In this document: piece after piece, positions 40,281-53,990 of the stretch
How positions within the stretch are numbered: the stretch's first letter is position 1
Layout of the letters: the number at the start of each line of letters is the position of its first letter
Origin: Craspedostauros australis
Taxonomy: Eukaryota; Bacillariophyta; Bacillariophyceae; Mastogloiales; Achnanthaceae
Length of the DNA: 64,000 nt
Reading direction: 5' to 3'
NCBI GenBank assembly: GCA_026770025.1
Contig: JAMXDE010000004.1
Span: 2,666,001-2,730,000 of the forward strand
Notes under the pieces: model-generated
The model's input: only the letters and a program-made list of their open reading frames with translations
Told to the model about the DNA's origin: nothing
Databases searched by the model: none
Translations under genes and position numbers: made by a program

Positions 40281-40284
40281 GTTA

Positions 40285-40322
40285 AGACCCGCCTGAGTGA
40301 AAATAGTACACCTTTCTCGGGA
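40285..40322 (+). repeat. Left 38-bp terminal inverted repeat
   Basis: Starts GACCCGCC directly after TTAA and ends CTCGGGAA. It is a perfect match to the reverse complement of 53949-53986. Confidence 0.85.
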
Positions 40323-43300
40323 AGTCCTCTCAGATTTCCCTATAAATTTAATATGATGTTCCTCTGTATGAGAAAGTGACGGATTGACTTTCCTAGAATT
40401 GCTACACTTTATATTTTATAAGTTATGAGGGCTTGAGTTGAGAAATTCCCCACAGTAGCCCGTGCTTTAGGTTTTTAGCTTTCGATCGGACATGGATGCG
40501 ACTCGTCATTGTCTTCAAGTTGGACGTCGGCGAGCGGCGAAAATGTCCTTTTTTCCTCTCTGAGACGGACTCACAGCAAGGCACTCGAAGCTGAACTCAG
40601 ACGTGTCTACAGTCGTGCGAACGGATCAACATTTCGGCTGTTTTTGGCCCCAATTGATTGCACGCAGTTTCTCGCAGTGGACTTGGAACAGGTGTGGAGG
40701 AGAAAAACTGCATCAGAATGCGATGGTACGTACGTGCACTGCGCTGTACGTACGACATTAGGATGGGATGAAGGTGCAGAGCTATCAGCATATTCCACCA
40801 GGTATAGTGGGATGTTACTTTTGCCTTTGCTGATGCTGGTAGTACTTCGTGAGCGCGGGAACTGTGATCACTGCCGGGTTCGTTGCACCATGATCTCGCG
40901 CGTTCCACGTGTGGTCTCTCATTTCATACAAGGGGCACGAGACTCTGTGACAAGATAGGTGCAGGAGGATGACGTTCCCATCCTGCGAATCAAAGTTGAT
41001 CGGTGGAAACTACAGCACATTCCTGATGTACGCTGCTGTGCTCTTCTCGAGTTGCTGAGTTGCCGAGTCGCCGCGCGTTGCGCCTCTCAGACAGGATTTC
41101 GGTGTCTTGTTGTTGTTGTTGTTGTGGAAGTTTGTGAGTTCATTTTGCTCTTTCCTGGATCATGTTTCATTCCTTTTCCTGGTTCTTTTCCATGTCGCAC
41201 CCAAAGAATCGCTCTGTACTTTTTCAAATGTCGGTGGACAGACAGACGTGAGATGTGGTGTTTTGTTAGAAACATGCGTGGAACAAAACCAAATCAGATA
41301 CTGCGCTCGCGAATTGTGGACTGCTTTGTGCCTGTCGATACGCGTTCCCAGAAGAATCGGTTCTGGTGGGCCACAAAACTGCGGAGTGGCTCTGCGAGAA
41401 CAGAATGATGTACCGCACTGAACACAAGAAGGGGAGTACAGCAGGAGATCATATAATACATCTGTGTTTTTATTGTACATGCCCACATTTGTATTATTCG
41501 CCCATCGGAGGCTGATGAGGTTAGATCTTGTGATGGATCGGCTGACTTCCGCAGAATCAACATTCCACCGTCAATTCCAACCGTCAACGATGGTGTTGCA
41601 TCCACAAGGCGCGCTTGGTGGTCAGCGGCGCAGGCAGACTTGGAGTGCGAGGATTGTCAGCATTGTTACCCTCATGAGATAGGTATGACGATCAGTTCCA
41701 TGGTGCGTTATCGTCTCCAGAGTTGGCGTGGATCAAAGACAAGGAACAACAACTATGTGCTGACCGTTTGGACCCCATATTGTGGATTGAGTTTAGGGTA
41801 TTTGAATTGATTTGACAGCGGCGTTGCTTCGAATAACAATTCCTCTTGGTGCTGTGGAACCACAGTTCCATTTTTGCTCCTGGCGACGACATCGATACTG
41901 ACATGCGCGTGCGATTTTTTTTTTTTTGCGCCCATGGATTTGGTATCATCACTCGCTCTCGCTGATCGTCATCATTCTCCGTTGTCTGCTGGGGCCGTTC
42001 GTGGCAGTCTGGGTGGTCACAGAGCAAGCAACAGCCAGCGCCAAACATGAATGGCACCGGCGGTTGATGATTGGTGAACGCTGTTGCACAGGCGGATGCG
42101 ATTTGTTGTCTCCCCCAGCGGTTGTTGGATGAGTGACGGACAAGAAGCTGGTGGTGATCGTCTGTACGGAAAGCGTTGGCGTAGATGGATGGGATGTTCT
42201 GAGCAATGAAACAATAGTACCATACTAATGGATGAGGTAGTATGGATGAGGCTGAGAGCTTGTTCCGATTTCCTCGCAAGCACAAACATTTTCGAATTGA
42301 TGGCGTATGCTCGTCCTCTCGCCGCGATTGACTTGTGTTTGCGTGAGAGCAAAATGTGAGCCACTGCTCTGCGCCGGAAACTGGTGTCCATTTGCAAGAG
42401 AACTGCGCATCCCAATTCACAAGTCGAGCGACAAATCGCGCACACTCCAAACTACATTCGTGACTTTCCGATACGACACGACACGACACGACATGCTACT
42501 AATACCAGTACCATACGTATTGGATAGATTGACGAATGGATGGATGGAGCGAGCTGTGATCATCCCAAGGATACCGTATCGACACACTTGGCGACGAACC
42601 ATAGTCGCCGTATTGGTACCATCGCAGGACATGGTGCAGATACGCGGAGCAAACGCCGGTACGTGCAGCCACAAATTGCTACACGCAACTGTGAAAGGGA
42701 ATGGCGCAAGTCACCAATTAGCTCATGGGCAGAAGTCAGCACATTTGCTCTTGGAGTCAGTCCAGTTGTACCAGACAATGTTACCAGCATCATGGAGATT
42801 GCATTGTACTTAGAGCAGAGAATTTGGGATCGATCATTCAAGAATCTTATTCCATTCGGCATGGCGCTTGGTGTCAGCAGCGATGGTGTCCACGTAGCAT
42901 TCTGTGGCAATGCTGCAGGTGCCCACCTTGTGCCTACTCTAGCAATTCACTGATTAGATTCTTATCATTGAATGATAGGTATGCTCATACACTGGACAGT
43001 GTACGACAGCAGCATCATACCCACTCTGGCTTGCACAGGAGCGTGAGAGCCGCAACCTGGAGTTGTGCCGTGCCAACTCCTTGTTTGTCTTGGGTCCTTT
43101 GTGTCCAATTTCTGGTTCCCCGATTTTCTCCCAAATCAATCTACTGAATTTTTCAATAGTGGTATACGATGTTGTTGTGTGCGTAGCACAATTGCAAACA
43201 TTACTGCATTCATCCTTTGCACGATCCTCTCCGTTGGATGAACTCCATACCTTGATTTCAACGCTTCCGACATACCCACCCACCAATACAATGTATGCGA

Positions 43301-43465
43301 TTCACCCTGTGCTATTTTTAGTTCGGCGCGTTGTGTTGCCGGATTCTCGTTTTCTCTCGTGTTATGTCTCACGATAAAGTTGCAATATCTTCCCCTTTCC
43401 GCTGCGTTCACGGACTCCATCGGTTTCGACAGCCACATGCCCGGACTGCCGTCATCTTCTTCGTC

Positions 43466-43735
43466 TTGTCGTCTACTTTGTAGTCGTTCAATTTTATTTC
43501 GCAATTCCGCCTGGTGCTATTCCTATGCCAACAAAAGCATACCTATGTAGGGACCCCGTGTTATTCTTCGCACAAACATTTTTGCACCCTCACCTGAACG
43601 TTTCCATCACGCATTCTATCAGTTTCGACGTCTGGAGGGACGAACCACTCTCATCTCCTCCGCCTCATTGTTTACTTTGTAGTCGTCCAATTTTTATTTC
43701 GCAATTCCGTCTGGTGCTATTTCTATCCCACCAAA
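43466..43735 (+). repeat. Imperfect direct repeat pair, about 57 bp, 203 bp apart
   Basis: ACTTTGTAGTCGTTCAATTT at about 43471 recurs as ACTTTGTAGTCGTCCAATTT at about 43674. Both continue through TTTCGCAATTCCG(C/T)CTGG and TGCTATT(C/T)CTAT. Related fragments sit near 43310 and 43850. It may be a decayed tandem array. Confidence 0.6.
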
Positions 43736-44651
43736 TCCATACCCATGCAAATTCCGCTCCGTCGACATGCACCTTCTGGAGGGCATCGTCAGTGTCATGC
43801 ACGATTGGCGCGATTGAGGTGAGTCTATGCCATTCCAGTTGCATCAACCTTTCGTATTGCGCAATACTGTATGGTGTTTGGCTGATGGGAAAGGGGAGGT
43901 TGTGTCTGAGCGATCTACACGCTCCGAATTGATGTTGCTCGCAATCCTCTTGCGAGGGCTGCGGACTCCGGCAGACTGTGTGTTGACTTTCAATTGCTCG
44001 CGGATCCGTGTGGTGTTGGCCTTTTCGAATTCCACCAATGGAAGGAGATTCACATGGCGTTGATGCAGATGGTTACGCAGGTTTGCGGATGACCTGGATG
44101 CTGGAGATGGTGCGGGGCATGATTTCCTACCGCTTTGCATCACGAGGCCAACGACTCAAGCAACAGAATTGACGATCAGCGACGGCAGTGGACAAATTGC
44201 AGCGGCTCCTGAAATATGTGGAACCACGGACGCGTTCCTGCACCATTGTGAGCGCTGCGCTTTTGCGGTTCCATCATGGTTCGAAGATCGACTTGGCGTC
44301 TTCTACTTGTCTCATACTCGACAATACACTGCATGCCTTGGTCGATGCCCGATCCAGTTTTGTGGTCTTGATCGAAAATGTGGGTGTGGTGTGGGAGTTG
44401 TTGTTGTGATTTTGGCGCACCTCGGTCAAATCTGATTGGATGGGAATCATCAATGGTTCAGTGTAAATGTCGTTTGTTGCTCACAAGGACAAACTACATT
44501 TAACAAACGAACAACGAAGAACCAAAGTATATCCGAAAATCAAGAAAACAACACGATGGGATCACAAATGACAGATTCATGGACCAGCCACCAGTCTCCG
44601 ACGCACCAATCAAAAGCAACAGGCAGAACAGAATGTCCGCCCCAGCGAACT

Positions 44652-44908
44652 CACATCACACATCACACATCACACACCACACACCACACACCACACACCA
44701 CACACCACACACCACACACCACACACCACACACCACACACCACACATCACACATCGCACACCACACACCACACACCACACACCACACACCACACACCACA
44801 CACCACACATCACACATCGCACATCGCACACCACACACCACACACCACACACCACACACCACACACCACACACCACACACCACACACCACACACCATGCA
44901 CCACACAC
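44652..44908 (+). repeat. CACACCACACAT microsatellite
   Basis: About 257 bp of CACACCACAC units with interspersed CACAT and CGCACA variants. The 239-codon frame across it (His/Thr repeats) is an artefact of the repeat. Confidence 0.95.
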
Positions 44909-45560
44909 CCAACGACTGTACTCTTGCCCATTCACTGCGGATACTTCAATCGTCGCATCTGAGACGATCGGAGCCGACAACCAACGCAATTCGAGATGGC
45001 AGCCAACGAAGAACAGATCGATTGTATTCAACCGTGTTGCGTTCGGCCACCAGGGACGTAATCATGATACACACTCGATCGTCTCTCACGATGCCAACGC
45101 AAATGATGAGAAATTGAGGCTACAATCGATGAGAATAAAAAGTAAAATTCAATAGAGAATGAATGGATAGACGGATTGATGTAGCACTCGTTGCTCTCTC
45201 TCTCTCTCTCTTGCACTTGCTCTCTCGTTGTGTTGGCGCCGCGTCACACTCACTCTTTCGCCAGAATAAAAATCGCAGATGGTTCCACATACATTCTCCA
45301 ATCACAACCACGTATGCACCAATGAGCGACCGTTGAACTGTTGCTGCCGATCTCGACACAAACACATCCCTCATGCTGTTGTGAACGAATATGCATGTGT
45401 CATTTTGGTTTGTTGTGTATTGTTGTCGCTGTCTGCTGTGCTCTCGTATCTGCAATGTCAGCACAACACTCAGTGCTCCCCAACATCGAGATCATTCAGA
45501 ATCATCTGTGCCTTCCCCCCCCCACCCACATCGTCCGTCAGCCACCATCGCTATCGCATC

Positions 45561-48500
45561 ATGACCCGTCCACGCGAGGATTCGAGCAGCGACCCCAATC
45601 CATCCCAATCAAAGGTGCAATGTCAAACAGCAACTGCTGGCACATCCATCTATCCCCAACCACCTCATGGGCACTACGCAACGTACCAATACTCTGCACC
45701 TGTTGGACCAAACCACAATGGCAGCGTTCACAGTCCTCCTCTCCCCATGGTTGCGAATCATCATGTCCCTCCCAACATACAACCTCCTTCCTTTTGCATC
45801 CCCAGCTACATCGGTACAGGCGTGGGTGGTCTACCATACTCTACATTCCACCCCAACAACAGCATGGCAACTCCAACATCTGACTACATGGGGCCCAACT
45901 GCTTTGGTATCATGCCTTGCAAGCAATGTCTGACCCTGTTCTGCAGTCACTGCAGTAGGCCACCATTTTGCCCAAACTGTGCGTCATCCATAAGCGGAGG
46001 TGCACGTCACACAGGTGTGAATGCCTTGGTACCACAGGCCAATTCGTTCTCCATTGGGACTTGTGGTGGTGCTGCTGCGCCAACACGTCCCAAGCGCAAA
46101 TCATCAGCAACCAGATGCAGGGCGCCACATCGACAGGCAGGAGATGATGTGCTCGCGCGACAAGATGTCGCTGTGTCTATGGAAGAGTGCGAGTCGGATT
46201 GTGCGAGTACAACCAGTGAGGATGACACGGATGCTGCGTTCGTTCCAGCCAACGAGGGCAAGGTGAATCGAAGAGAAGTGCTGCAAGCCATTTTTGAAGC
46301 AGCTGGCATTAGCATCAAACCCCTCTCACGGTTCCATGTGGATGGATTTGAACGTCTCCCACGAAAGACAGCGACTGGTCGTTGGAGTCTCATCAACCGA
46401 GTCTGGGATGGAGTTTGTGGTGGGTCAACCCAGCACATGTTTCCTGGCAGAGAACCCCCCGAACAGCTTTCAGAAGCCATGACCCTCGTGCGACATCGCA
46501 AACAGCTCCCTCCTGTGTTGCTGGAGCAGACTCTCTGTCATTTAGCCTTCTGGGGGAATCAAGACCTATCGCTGACTGCTCGTGCGGTTTTGGCAATGAC
46601 CTGTGACTCCAGGCGCTGCACCCGAATCCTGGCCGCGCACTACGGTAGCTTGTCGAAAGGAGACAAGGCAAAGATCAAGCTTGGACGCCGAACCATGTCT
46701 CGTACAGGACACAGGCGACTGTCGCGCGCTGGAGGTGCGATCCTTGCTGGAGGCCAGTTCCCACACGCAGACTACAAGTACCGTGTCAAGGAATCTAGTC
46801 TCCAGGGAGTGATCTCGTTTCTCACCTCCATGTTCCAGTACCGGCCAGGCATCACAAGGAGCATCAAGTTGGCTGGTGTTCTGTTCCCAGACCTGCCTAT
46901 CTTCATTCGCGGATCAACATCTGATGCAGAACTCTTTGCGAAGTACAAGAACGCAACAGATGACCCTGTCGGCAGGCCTGCCTTCATGAGTATCCTGACA
47001 TTACTCACACGACGTGGCAAGTGTCAAACTGGCCTGTCCTCCTTCTACACAGATACTCTGACTGTATTCATGCACTTCCAAAACATGATCAGGAGAGTCA
47101 TGGAACTGCTTCGGACTCAGAACAAGGAACATCAAGACAAAGAGCTCGTGTCTGAACTTCTCAACGAGGCACAGGCCATCATCACGGACAACAATTCTGT
47201 TCTTTCATTTGCGAAATGGAAATATGCAAACAAGCACATCCAGGTGAAGTCAACCACGGATAATCTACATTCCGCAGAGTTCGCTCTGACAAATGGCTCC
47301 CTCCCGTTTGTGAACCAAGCATGCAAGCAATGTGCAGATGTCATGACATTCTTCCCGATTCGCGTTCGCGACTTCATGCGAACTGCCACCAACAACATCA
47401 CTGGCAACACGTTCGAATTGGATCGCATGGCTGCAGCAATTAACCTGTGTGATGATGCACTGCGCCAGTACATGGCCCACCAAGTGAGATGAAAGGTACA
47501 AGCACAGAAGATCAAGGAGGAAAAGGAGCGCCTCAAGGACCATCCAGATCGCATCATTGCCGTGCTTGATCACAAGCAACGCATCCTCCCAACGGAGAAT
47601 CAGGAAGCTCAGAAAGCGTTCTTCGGAAAAAACGGAATGTCTCTCCTAGGTGTCATGACAATCCAATACAAGAACGGTAAGTTCGAGTACCGATTCATTG
47701 ACATGGTGATGAAGGGGCGGAACAAACAGGATCATGTCCAAGTTGCTGGTGCGATCAAGATTCTTCATGCTACCGTGCTTCCGAAGCTTCACAAGGGGGT
47801 CAAAGAGGTCGTATTCCAAAGTGACAATGCCAGTTGTTTTGCAAGTCCGGCACTGATGAGGTACATGCATGGACTAAACCAGGGAGAGGTTGAAGTTGAA
47901 TACACGATGCCAGAGAAGAAGAAGAAGAAGCGGAAGGCGACAGGCAAGAACAAAGGCAAGCACAAGGACAAGGCTAAGTATCCACCTCCCCCCAAAATCA
48001 ACACCGAACAGTCATCTTATCATGATGCGAAGGCTGCATCATCCACGAAGGCAAAAGCACAGCAAGACACCGGAACCCGCCCTCCCAAACCACAACTCCA
48101 AATCATCCAATGGCTGTACACCGAGGCACAAGCTGGCAAGAGTGCTTTGGACGGACACTTCGGTTTTGTCTCACGTCAACTCAGGTTGTATGTGGACAGT
48201 GCCAGGGACGCAAAGATTGCCACCGAAGGCGATGTTTTCAAAGTGCTGAAAGCTGCCAACATCAAGGGGACAACAACGCTTCTGTTGGATCTGAGCGGAT
48301 TGGGACACGCCATCATCTGCGATGTGGACGGAAAGGAAAAAGCATTCGCGACCAACCGAGTTTCCGTTCGCGCCACCCATCAAATTGATCTGATTGATGA
48401 CAAAATTCAGGTCACAGCATCATCGGGATTGACGCATCCAGAGACCATCACTCAGGACAAGATCGACAAATTTGACATTCTCCATCTCGATGTCACTTGC

Positions 48501-49205
48501 AATGATGAGGACATCACAGAGGTCCCACCGGCATTTGTGATGGATCCACAGAATATCCGCGGCTCACAACCGACTGAGCGACGACACGCAACAACAACAA
48601 ACAAGAGCACCACCAAGACGGAAGTGTTCAAACGTGTTCTCACTTCGCGTGTTCTGGAACCAGCAGCGGCAGCAGAAACGGCAAATTGTGAAGGAAATGC
48701 CACAGTGGACTTCCCTCAATCCATCAGGCAGGGATGGGCGATCTGCCACCCAGACAAAGCCACCTCACGAAAGAAGGATCCATCAGCACGTCCGGCAACC
48801 AAGGTACCGTCCATGTCGAAACAAGTGGCGCAGATCGTGTGCGATGCTGCGATTGCTTGCAGGAACCCAGACACGAGGAGGAGCGCTCATGTGCTTCACG
48901 AAGAGCTGATGGCCGGGCCTTTCATGCTTGATTGGGAGCAGAGGATCAAGGTGGACATCACGTACCTGAAATGCTTCCTGGCAGCTCCTGACGGTCGAGC
49001 GGAGAGATACCTCGAGAACAATGGCTACTTGGATGACGAGGAGTGCGAAGAGCACCTGAACGAGATGCATGAACTGCGGATCATGGCATCCAAGGAGAAC
49101 ACTCAAAGTGAAGAAGCGCACGAAGAGCAGGTTCTGGATGATCGCCCATACGACGGGCAGGACGCTGATGTGATTGATGGCAACCTGCTACCTTCCGATG
49201 ATTGA
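45561..49205 (+). CDS. Transposase-like zinc/DDE protein of the TTAA element, one in-frame TGA
   Basis: One continuous frame of 1,214 codons from the ATG at 45561 ('MTRPREDSSSDPNPSQS') to 49205, broken only by a TGA at 47490-47492 between 'MAHQVR' and 'KVQAQKIKEEK'. Upstream codons stay open to 45279 but look non-coding. Features in order: Pro/Asn-rich leader; zinc knuckle 'CKQCLTLFCSHCSRPPFCPNC'; basic linker; a helical domain ('GVLFPDLPIFIRGS', 'SFYTDTLTVFMHFQNMIRRV'); then, after the TGA, an RNase-H-like core with 'IIAVLDHKQRILP', 'EVVFQSDNASCFASPAL', and, after a Lys-rich insert, 'LYTEAQAGKSALDGHFGFVS'. The last resembles the GK-x-x-x-D-G third acidic site of several uncharacterised eukaryotic transposases. 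The C-terminal helical domain ends in an acidic tail. Exact superfamily not assigned. Confidence 0.7.
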
Positions 49206-49478
49206 TCCTGACGACCACTGCAAGTATGCTACCAGTATTATAATGGAGTCTGTAATACAATAGTCTATGTCACATTGGTAATATCAACTCGCAGCAAGGC
49301 GATATCAACAGCAGTAGCTGCGTGTTCACAGGGATTACAGGAGGAAGCTGTTGTTGGTATGTATAGAGTGGTTCTAATGTTATTGGTTGCTACGATCTAG
49401 ACATGCACTATGGAACCTCCATCGCTGTGCATCTACTCAATTCGCACATGTGATTGCTATGTATGGTATGGTACACGA
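49206..49478. other. Spacer between transposase-like gene and peptidase pseudogene
   Basis: AT-rich tail-to-tail spacer of 273 bp. No feature is recognised. Confidence 0.4.
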
Positions 49479-52347
49479 TTAGAACAAAGCGTGCATCAAT
49501 CCAAACCCAGCCCATTTCTCGTCAGCTGACTTCTCGGCCTTCTTTGACGACGTCTTGAACATGAAATCATACGCCAGCACGGTCATGAAGGCGTTCTGCG
49601 TCGGCGTTGCAGCCAGACCATTCCCGCCCTCCACACTCTCATCGTATTATGACAGCCATTGCTTTCCCTGAACCAGGCTCCACAGCTTCTTCACCATCTT
49701 GCGCGTATGCGCTGGGTGTATCCGATCATCGTTCGTGCGGCAGAGAATAGGATTGGTGGAGATTTTTGATCCTATTTGATGTTGTGATACAGCGAGGTCT
49801 ACCCCATGAACATCTCCAATCGGACGTCTCCGGATCACCAAATTCGCTCGTCCAACCGGGTGTGCCATCCGACTGAGATCTCTGGACCGCTTCATGTCAT
49901 GGATCGACTGTGCAATGCACTGGCCGAACAGTTCAGGAGCATCACGAAAGCATCCGCACCACCAATCCTCCGCCGGATCCGCCGCGGATGGCCAATGTTT
50001 TGGCTTTTCATTTTTTCGACCAAATCAAATCCTCAGCAACTGCGATGAAGTCTTCGGGTGGCTTGGTGCGCTTTTCGCGCACCGCACCCTCCAGCGAGAC
50101 GATATTGCAGCAATTCAGACACATGGTTGGAGTGGAGTCCATCATTCGGGATGAGAGTGTGTGCGAGCAGTACCACAGAATGGGCGCAGTTTGTATCATA
50201 TCATGCCATGCCAACCAATCGGACATTGATTCAATTGTGAGTATGACATGAAGTGAAGTGAGAATACAAATGGAAAAGAATGAAGGAGTGAATGACAGGT
50301 GTTCCCACAAGCTCCGAAAGTCGTACTCCTCCAATGCGCCTATTGTGTGCATGCTTTCCATTCCTGATTTTCGTCTGCTCTGCGCCGCGCACATGTCATG
50401 CACAGCTGCGCGAGTGAACAACACAATCATACACAGCAGCAACAACATCGACAATAATTGGCACTCACCTGATGCCAGCTGGGACCAAATTCTTCATCAC
50501 CACGCACGTTGGCTTCCGCGCAGACGCCGCCACATTCCAACCATGCCAGACCTGTTGCGGGGTGTAATGCAGACCGAAACGACCTCAAAGGCACCGTAGG
50601 CGTAGAGCAAGGTGGGTCCGCTTGTTCGTGGGGACGCCTCTTCGACATCATGAAGTGCAGAGCATCGGTGCTGTCTTTGCTTTCTGCGATGCATTGCATG
50701 ACGTCCAAACCTTTCGAATCGAAATGACTTGGTAGCAATTGCAGCTTGCTGCCAAGGTGGACCTCTGGATCAACCCGCTTCATCATCTTCTCGTCTTCGC
50801 CATCAAACACGGATGCATCGCCGAGCCACAGCATGGTTGGTTCTGTGTAGCTGGTGGTCGTGATCCAGAATCGATCGCTCTCATAGGGATGCGCAGATCG
50901 AACGCTGGCGGAGGCGATTCGGGGTCGCTTGTCGACTCCCACCAAACGCAGCTTGTTAGCCTCCTCCTCCAATTGATAGAACTCCAGCTTCGATCTGACG
51001 TTACCAATGAGCAAGAGGATGAGGTGGTTCTTTGTGATGGTGTAGTTTTTCGGAGGAGGCAGCCGGAGGTTTTGAAGAGGGTATGATATATCCAATCGTC
51101 CGGACCATACTGACGAATTTGTGCGCATTGACGTAGATGATGGATCCAGCCTTGAATTCCTTGGCACCCTCAGGTGACCAGTTGGATTGCAAAGGGATCA
51201 TGAGAACGGTGCCACCGAAATCGATATCCGAATCTTCTGGTGCAAGCAACGGTTTGAAATCCGGCGGATCTCCTGTCTCGATTCTGGTATGTTGTCTGGG
51301 CGGCAGCATGTGCTTGTACTTGACCTCCGTATCCAGAATTTGGTGATCTGGTGAGTGATGGCCCTCGTGCGGATTTTGTAAATGCCCCTGCCACGCACCC
51401 TCTGATCGTCGACGTTGGCTGAGACTGCGATGTGAGACTTTTCACCTTCGAAGACCACGAGCGCCGATGCCAGACCTGTGCCTCTGACCCACTCGCGGAT
51501 CGTCCTGGGGCATCCCGCCCTCATGAGAGACGAAGAACCAAATCCGCCCCGACCAGGAGGATGTTCCTTGTTTTGTAGCAGGCTCTGGTCTTATCCTCTG
51601 GTATTGAGAATGGCCTGTCGGTGACGAATGCGGATTTGACGAGATCGAATTCCCTAACGACGACGGAGTCCGTGCTGCCCCGCGACAAACTGAGAAGTGC
51701 ACGGGTGATGAGCTTGCCGTCTTGCGACATTGGATCTCTCGCTCTGGGCAGCACCCAACTTCCCTTCCATGTCCATGGCATCTTCTCCTTTCTGGCAGGG
51801 TTGTCCAGATCCAGCACCTTGATCCATTTGGGGTTGCTGGTCTGTTACGACGCCAACGTCGTTTGCGCCAGATGCCTTTTTCGATTCTGCAGTGTTTGGA
51901 GTGTGGACAATGTCGATGTGGATGCAGGATTGTTGGTTGGAAGGATGACGCGAACAGTGAAGCAAGACAACATAATACGAGAATAATATGTGAGAATAGA
52001 ATGCAATGTTGTTCTGTGTGTGAGGAGCGCGATGCATACCATGGAATACTTGCAGAGCTTCTTCAGCTCATTCGTGCAGTGTATTGTGCATTGCGCATTG
52101 TACCTACCTTGGAATCCTTCCACAGATTGAAGAGCATGCCATTGCTGGCTGCATCCATCCCCATCTTGCTGACGAAGGGTATGGTGTCATTCGCCTCACG
52201 GACGTCCACGATGCTTTTGTCGGATCTGGTCTTGGGCTTCGTAAGACTGCCGAGCGTGTTGAGGCACATGTCGTTGGCCCTGGAGCCAAAGCTCATGGAA
52301 GATTTGCTGTCCACATCCTCCAACGAGGCGTAGGAATCGTCCGCCAT
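49479..52347 (-). pseudogene. Prolyl oligopeptidase (S9 family) pseudogene
   Basis: Homology to a whole S9 prolyl oligopeptidase can be followed in pieces. It begins 'MADDSYASLEDVDSKSS' (52347), then a GT-AG intron (52107-51887), then propeller pieces ('VLDLDNPARKEKMPWTWKGS', 'LLSLSRGSTDSVVVREFDL', 'DSDIDFGGTVLMIPLQSNWS', 'YTITKNHLILLLIGNVRSKL'). The hydrolase part has 'LAWLECGGVCAEANVRGDEE', a second intron starting at 50468, 'PPEDFIAVAEDLI', nucleophile motif 'RGGSGGGLVV', and 'TNDDRIHPAHTRKM'. It is broken by a TAA at 51847-51845, by at least four frame changes (near 51523, 51335, 51085 and 50640) and more in the catalytic part. The catalytic His motif reads 'EGGNGL' instead of EGGHGG. Introns show the source was a nuclear gene. 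It lies inside the TTAA element. Confidence 0.88.
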
Positions 52348-52869
52348 GTTGCTTCTCTTTGCGTCGTGATGCGCTATGATGCGTTGTGATGCGTTGGAAT
52401 TGTCACGGTCGCACAAGCAGGAATGAGTGACCGTAACGGTACAACCCACCAACTGAACACGAGCGGCGATCGGTCAATTGATCGACGCAATGAGAGATGC
52501 CAGTTGAGATTGGGATGAAGCACTTCAGAAGATGAACGTGCTTGTGCATGATGCTCTTGATTGAAAAAAGATGATGGCAAGCGAGTATGGTACTCGTGCG
52601 GTTGCCAAGCGATGCCGATGGAAATGGAAATGGCAACAGTGATGATGCGAAGCCACGCGACGCGATGTTTCCCACCAGTCAACACAGGGCCCCTTTCGTC
52701 TCTTGTGTTGACTTGTTTCTTGTCTTTGTTTGTCAAGTCTGTCTCTTTGGATGGCTCGTGCGTTGAGATTCTCAACGAAGCCTTCGAGCCAACGTGCCAG
52801 GTTTTACTCAGCAGATATGACGTCTGTCCGGATACCAAGATCACAATCGACAAAAATCATTACTTTTCA

Positions 52870-52879
52870 TTGGCGCCAA
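52870..52879. promoter_or_regulatory. TTGGCGCCAA palindrome inside the TTAA element
   Basis: Third exact copy of this ten-base palindrome in the window, about 520 bp upstream of the peptidase pseudogene start. Function not shown. Confidence 0.25.
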
Positions 52880-53046
52880 AGAGTTCAAAGGACGTTCTGG
52901 ACGATACCTTCGATGAAACAAACTGTAAAAATTGTGAAATCGAATCAAAAACGCCGGAACGGCGGCCGTTGAAATGGATCGAAACAGTGCGGGAAGCAAA
53001 AAAGTGGGAGAAAAGCAAGAGTTCGCGACAAGGGCAACACCAGAGC

Positions 53047-53330
53047 GACGGAGGAGGTAACTGTGTGCAGATGACGTTGTTCAGACAGAGTCATCAGGTT
53101 GCTCAGGGTTAGAGTTAGGGCTGGGGTTCTGGCTTGGGGTAGGGTTAGGGTTAGGGTTAGGGTTTGGGAGGTGGGAAGCAGTTGCTCAGGGCTAGAGTTA
53201 GGGTTAGGGTTCCGGCTGGGGTTTCGGCAACTTGGGAGAGACGAGGGAGGCAACTGCGTGTGGCTGACAGTACTCAGACAGAGCCATGAAGTTACTCAAT
53301 GTCAGGGTTAGGGATGGGGTTAGGGGGCCA
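53047..53330 (+). repeat. Telomere-like TTAGGG repeats within a diverged tandem duplication
   Basis: GGGTTAGGGTTAGGGTTAGGG occurs at about 53150-53166 with variants (TTAGAG, TTAGGGCTGGGG) on both sides. A unit containing GGAGG(T/C)AACTG(T/C)GTG, CAGACAGAG and a TTAGGG patch is repeated about 200 bp later (53047 and 53246). TTAGGG is the common eukaryotic telomere repeat, including diatoms, so this is an interstitial or subtelomere-derived tract. Confidence 0.8.
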
Positions 53331-53948
53331 GAGGGTCAAGACTTGGATTAGATGTGTGGGTTGGGGTTGCCACTGCCTACAGGACTGTGGCGAGGGTGCT
53401 GTCCATTTCCATCTTGGCACCAGCAATTCACATCGTCCAATTCAGCGCTGCGCAACTTGCATCGTATGCGTCTTGTGCATTGCAGCCAGTGCATCCCCCT
53501 TGCTACCACTCTGACATAACAGACAGGAGTAAGAGGAACAAGGACCGTGCCTACCATCCTGGTTGACGGCCCATGGCACATCGCCCTGCATCACATTACA
53601 TCACAATACATCACATCACTCTCCACACAACAAGAGTTTTGTGTCCACACCAACGATTCTGTGTGAGCACAAGGTAGAGTCACTCTCCGGAAATTCAAGA
53701 ATCGCGAACAAAGCCCAAACGATGGAAGAAAAAAGAACGTTTTGGGACGAATGACCACTGCGACTCTATTGAAGCGCCAATGAGCACTGTTGCGTCTGTG
53801 CGTTATTCACCTAATAGGTAGATTCGACATGATTTTCAACCCTCCATAACTTTAAAATGATTGGACGGAACAATTCTAGTTCTTGCCATATGATGTATTT
53901 GATGTAGGACAAGAGATATACGCAGTTATTTTTAACACAGAAACGACG

Positions 53949-53986
53949 TTCCCGAGAAAGGTGTACTATTTTCACTCAGGCGGGTC
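53949..53986 (-). repeat. Right 38-bp terminal inverted repeat
   Basis: The plus strand begins TTCCCGAG and ends GGCGGGTC directly before TTAA. It is a perfect inverted match to 40285-40322. Confidence 0.85.
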
Positions 53987-53990
53987 TTAA

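Follow-up and report, generated by a model that had tools for sequence, protein, structure and literature searches.

A 64,000-nucleotide stretch of the genome assembly of the diatom Craspedostauros australis (74.8 Mb in 90 contigs; C2:2666001-2730000), referred to as the window, contains a large DNA transposon bounded by terminal inverted repeats (TIRs) and flanked by a short target-site duplication. The features of this element, in coordinates of the window, are as follows.

40282-40285, no strand: left target-site duplication, TTAA, its length of 4 bp being set by the family data and an empty site
40286-53986, forward strand: whole transposon, 13,701 bp, TIR-bounded and lying between the duplications
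40286-40323, forward strand: left 38-bp TIR, GACCCGCCTGAG..., which recurs in the genome
45561-47489, forward strand: N-terminal part of the transposase frame (643 codons), preceding an in-frame TGA and with relatives in the genome
45918-45980, forward strand: six-cysteine cluster, CKQCLTLFCSHCSRPPFCPNC, CxxC-x5-CxxC-x5-CxxC-like
47490-47492, forward strand: TGA stop breaking the frame of the window copy
47493-49202, forward strand: C-terminal 570 codons with a putative DDD (three-aspartate) core, D codons at 47568-47570, 47823-47825 and 48150-48152
49825-51044, reverse strand: frame-broken prolyl-oligopeptidase (S9) relic, found by profile matches and including a GGSxGG stretch
53949-53986, reverse strand: right 38-bp TIR, exact reverse complement of 40286-40323
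53987-53990, no strand: right target-site duplication, TTAA, 4 bp, read at the window copy

The initial annotation, made from the window's letters, had described perfect 38-bp inverted ends about 13.7 kb apart with TTAA outside each, and this description proved exact (13,701 bp). Only two matches to the 38-bp end were found in the window, both of them the ends of the element, and none was expected from 100 shuffles. A search of the whole genome returned 51 matches, or 56 with a looser pattern, and none with reversed-pattern controls. Chance TIRs are excluded because of the shuffles and the recurrence of the end in the genome.

Forty-six of the 56 end matches formed 23 facing pairs, each on a single contig, with ten matches left unpaired (genome-wide match counts are lower bounds throughout). 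These pairs, termed family A, were mostly 12.9-14.3 kb long (15 of 23), the remaining eight spanning 20-46 kb, and a match to the window's transposase lay inside 22 of them. Family A has two end types, with the inner sequence TTTCTCGGG or AAAGTCGGCG. In a second giant branch, B, the ends take the form GACCCGGTTACTCTAGG; they gave 11 matches, against one with the reversed control, and five pairs spanning 9.3-31.7 kb. The ends of a compact branch, D, take the form GA(C/G)CC..CCGAGTGAGTCGACCTG. Pairing of the 58 D end matches with readable letters, among 64 in total, yielded 22 pairs, 17 of which were 6.0-6.1 kb long and 16 of which held a listed transposase match. For the D transposase core, at least 88 matches were obtained; 72 lie in frames of at least 1,160 codons, and the compact branch is heavily amplified. 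The compact, mostly 6-kb branch D and the second giant branch B belong to the same lineage as A. Short independent miniature inverted-repeat transposable elements with these ends were rejected, as none was among the pairs found, the shortest being 12.9 kb in A, 9.3 kb in B and 6.0 kb in D. In addition, the 1.5 kb downstream of the transposase was 99.4-100% identical among the ten rows closest to the window, and such near-identity of the closest copies speaks for recent mobility.

Equal 4-bp flanks were observed in 26 of the 29 insertions of A, B and D for which both ends were read. On either strand, the matched duplications were ATAA (14), TTAA (6), ATAT (2), ATAG (2), GTAA (1) and CTAA (1). 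The pattern search for D gave agreement in all 22 pairs, every one of them NTAN (N, any base) and one of them TTAA; the D copy at C8 is counted in both sets. Across 59 distinct A and B flanks, a central TA was present in all 59, the outer bases were A or T in 56 and 55, respectively, and the next twelve flanking bases showed no strong preference except for a scarcity of C at position -6. The end patterns tolerated three mismatches, so that the central TA was not strictly imposed by the search. The TTAA-specific targeting originally proposed is therefore rejected, most copies (all but 6 of 26 and 1 of 22 matched duplications) being flanked by other NTAN tetranucleotides.

A family-A copy on C59 carries ATAA on both sides, next to the end of another element. 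In the other arm of an inverted structure on this contig, a single ATAA joins the same left flank (72/72) and the same right side (55/55), and the same empty arrangement occurs at C1:550020 (L019) with a flank identity of 69/72. The filled and empty sites on C59, the latter with a single ATAA, therefore demonstrate a 4-bp staggered insertion. Thus, the duplication anticipated from the window copy is real, but it is mostly not TTAA.

The inverted structure itself (C59:54108-113718, L085-L087) has the flank left of the family-A copy recurring reverse-complemented at 113.7 kb, and one and the same left end, from another family-A element, is present in both arms. The structure may be genuine or may have arisen when two haplotypes were assembled as a fold-back. 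Abutting ends were seen at C59:67334-67391 (L086), with 4 bp between them (GGGTC-ATAA-GACCC), and at C2:2630107-2630167 (L004), with 6 bp between them (GGGTC-TTATAA-GACCC); they look like the outcome of an insertion of one element into the duplication that adjoins another. Two element copies, C12:1945615 (L009) and C37:7849 (L016), have an identical left flank of 1,504 bp, explicable by a segmental duplication or by the presence of both haplotypes in the assembly.

The protein of about 1,200 codons noted in the element was located at 45561-49205, but its frame is not open here, the TGA at 47490-47492 splitting it into 643 and 570 codons. In a comparison of 38 rows, in which some places are represented by two rows, the only copies with this codon as a stop were the window copy (L031, L040) and L058. 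An intron at the TGA was considered and dropped because most of the other rows read straight through this codon. Open frames of 1,262-1,312 codons, free of stops in the matched part, were found in at least 16 other copies. For 21 frames selected as open, the ratio of nonsynonymous to synonymous divergence (dN/dS) was 0.16-0.36 in pairs with dS > 0.1 (708-1,071 codons), and dN was lower in the C-terminal than in the N-terminal half. On these values, the transposase has been under purifying selection. L058 (C8:858625) belongs to a more distant subfamily and has the same codon as a stop, which is perhaps a recurrent mutation. Between the more distant A subfamilies, dN was ~0.09-0.11 in the N-terminal half versus ~0.02 in the C-terminal half, a contrast that suggests changing DNA-binding specificity or recombination between subfamilies.

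The cysteine-rich segment at 45918-45980, initially read as a zinc knuckle, is not of the CCHC type and instead forms a six-cysteine CxxC-type cluster, similar to one found in branch B; it is the likeliest DNA-binding part of the protein and likely binds zinc. In the proposed DDD/DDE (DDE, with glutamate as the third acid) core, the first two putative acids are conserved, the motifs DHK and QSDNA.CFAS recurring in all five sequences compared, which represent four lineages (A, B, a C-type and, with two sequences, D). The third is less firm: two rows cover it, and the conserved E of YTEAQ (48123-48125) could take its place. The spacing is D-84-D-108-D in the window copy and D-83-D-45-D in L104, a lysine-rich insertion making the difference. 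In single-sequence models, whose confidence was low to middling, the first two acids lie at the ends of strands 1 and 4, and the predicted order, strand-strand-strand-helix-strand-helix, fits the RNase H fold in its succession of strands and helices and its placement of acids. Searches with the 45561-49205 product gave no family match: searches of Pfam with both halves returned nothing within E 0.1 beyond chance-level rows, no NCBIfam family exceeded the cut-off, no PDB profile matched, and no relative was found in viral and prokaryotic contigs. The FFGK.G and SDNA motifs may resemble those of repeated proteins, as yet uncharacterised, of invertebrates and fish, which we take as a lead and not as evidence.

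The prolyl-oligopeptidase relic lies on the strand opposite to the transposase, with best E-values in the window of 6.7e-5 and 1.3e-4. Its relatives were found at 37 loci and occur in 22 of the 23 family-A pairs, namely all 22 that hold the transposase, so that ends, transposase and relic travel together. The relic protein is 100% identical in ten rows including that of the window, 63-88% identical in most others and lower in a few. Apart from two, the loci are inside a pair, no more than 22 kb from a transposase match of family A or, at C61:223 kb, next to a transposase piece (C61:225065). The two exceptions, C12:326987 and C3:1277331, may be host genes. In 15 loci inspected by eye, one of them the window's own, no uninterrupted reading across the active-site region was seen. 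Because all 22 transposase-holding pairs hold the relic, the giant A branch probably arose from one gene capture; in the simplest account, this capture preceded the split of the A subfamilies and was followed by decay in transit.

The window element is best explained as one copy of a recently mobile giant (~13-14 kb) DNA transposon which, judged by published element anatomy, lies most probably in or near the Sola superfamily. As described in PMC10741241, Sola elements have a DDD transposase, a 4-bp target-site duplication, a size of mostly 2-9 kb with some above 15 kb, and TIRs of 11-1124 bp. The present family resembles them in its 4-bp duplication (26/29 insertions, 22/22 pairs and the empty site), in its size (6.0-6.1 kb for most of D, and 12.9-14.3 kb for those A copies that include no long extra DNA) and in its 38-bp TIR. 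Its transposase is putatively of the DDD type, with the first two D in five sequences and the third D, or alternatively E, in two rows. Giant KDZ (Kyakuja-Dileera-Zisupton), EnSpm and Sola-1 elements, generally >10 kb and with nested insertions, are described from the brown alga Ectocarpus in PMC12477816, which also reports accessory genes and transposase genes that are often predicted to be broken, with movement in trans. The same account includes the 21.5-kb Sola1-1_Ec32, in which an accessory gene is encoded opposite to the transposase (PMC12477816). Like that element, the present one exceeds 10 kb, carries an extra gene opposite to its transposase and resides in a stramenopile host, whereas the extra gene is a ParB-methyltransferase there and a decayed prolyl oligopeptidase here. 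KDZ elements duplicate 8 bp, in contrast to the 4 bp found here. The KDZ giants are comparable in their giant size, in transposases that can exceed 1,300 aa, in nested insertions and in accessory genes (PMC12477816).

In the mechanism that we propose, a DDD-type transposase of ~1,300 aa would bind the GACCC-headed inverted repeats, excise the element and insert it at an NTAN tetranucleotide, which thereby becomes duplicated; both the two-metal chemistry of the DDD acids and the cut-and-paste mode are inferred. The prolyl-oligopeptidase gene would have entered family A, probably in a single capture, and its decaying remains would have been passed on to the later subfamilies. The window copy lacks a full transposase and, if mobile, would need the enzyme from an intact copy.

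Several observations weigh against the assignment to Sola or against parts of this scheme. Membership in Sola, although most probable, rests on anatomy, compared by description and not by transposase sequence. The sites published for Sola2 (AWWT, AAAT, ATTT and ATAT; PMC3627910) fit the length and AT content of the sites here but not their strict central TA. The third-acid motif GKS.LD.HF is supported by two rows only, those covering it, and fold searches gave no significant match, acetyltransferases ranking at or above nucleases. Unequal flanks occurred in 3 of the 29 insertions, namely at C2:2630137 (ATAA/TTAT), in the inverted structure C59:67361-113718 (ATAA/TTAT) and in the B copy at C43 (CTAA/TTAT), the left flank of which equals that of the B copy at C28 over 63 bp. 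For the window copy, the assembly yielded no empty site. Finally, the 5'-GA at both ends of A and B satisfies the 5'-RR rule of the Kolobok superfamily.

The best surviving alternative is an undescribed DDD superfamily, distinct from Sola but of the same general chemistry, with NTAN targets and GACCC/GAGCC termini. An undescribed family was also put forward in the initial annotation; its TTAA-specific part fails, and what is left of it is possible but, in our judgement, less likely than a Sola-type element. The transposase without a Pfam, NCBIfam or PDB match and without a viral or prokaryotic relative would suit such a superfamily, as would the central TA in 59/59 A and B flanks, which is stricter than the Sola2 sites published in PMC3627910. 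However, the libraries searched held no known Sola profile, so that silence is expected for Sola too, and the duplication length, size and DDD pattern fit Sola (PMC10741241), of which giant Sola-1 elements are described for Ectocarpus (PMC12477816). If a new superfamily were nonetheless true, it would comprise, in one alga, a compact branch of mostly 6-kb elements in which dozens of transposase copies are open, together with two or more giant branches; one of these would have acquired a peptidase gene and gone on transposing through several subfamilies as the cargo decayed.

Membership in Kolobok is improbable. Kolobok is the other TTAA-targeting superfamily besides piggyBac. According to PMC9587614, its termini are 5'-RR and YY-3' and it has a C/DxxH motif between the second and last catalytic residues; it is reported from the diatom Fragilariopsis, and KolobokP duplications measure 3-4 or 4-5 bp and are not only TTAA. 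The family thus shares with Kolobok a 4-bp duplication, TTAA among its sites and 5'-RR termini, and both the diatom record and the looser targets of KolobokP (PMC9587614) favour the assignment. Against these points, classical Kolobok is TTAA-specific, whereas many sites here are other than TTAA (TTAA in 6/26 and 1/22). Moreover, the interval from the second to the third D, as assigned, contains no C/DxxH in either the window copy or L104, a result that depends on the assignment of the third acid.

A divergent piggyBac is highly improbable and was rejected on target sites and the Pfam null. TTAA on both sides of the window copy would fit it, but other tetranucleotides flank most copies and neither half of the transposase matched a Pfam piggyBac family at E up to 10 (the HMMER filters drop most matches above ~0.1), in keeping with the earlier view that this is not a recognisable piggyBac. 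Moreover, piggyBac transposases are ~600 aa long, and the transposase here is about twice that length.

A chance or nested composite, in which unrelated DNA lies between two copies of a short repeat, is equally hard to credit and was rejected, since ends, transposase and relic occur together in 22/23 pairs, 15/23 pairs are 12.9-14.3 kb long, and branch D with similar ends has 17/22 pairs of 6.0-6.1 kb and 16/22 with a listed transposase match, although 8/23 pairs span 20-46 kb and Copia matches lie inside two B copies.

These Copia-type matches are to reverse transcriptase and indicate that nested insertions occur; 150 of 1493 Copia candidates were scored, and their rows were compared with the element intervals by eye and, in a further comparison, with six typed rows only, so that nested insertions are under-counted. 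Copia-type elements are very abundant in the genome.

A single genome contains small and giant versions of one transposon lineage, some copies intact and others dead, along with target-site duplications, an empty site and a gene that was captured. The system is suited to asking how eukaryotic DNA transposons come to exceed 10 kb and whether their cargo is of any help or a mere passenger, and an enzyme moving 13 kb at a loose NTAN target could serve as an algal tool.

Within the transposon, a tandem array with a 14-base period (CACCACACACCACA-like) occupies window positions 44596-44952, upstream of the transposase frame, and telomere-like TTAGGG runs lie close to the right end at 53098-53331. 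The neighbouring genes in the window encode a DUF6824 protein, a urea transporter, a DUF1995 protein and a CEMIP/G8 protein with PT repeats.

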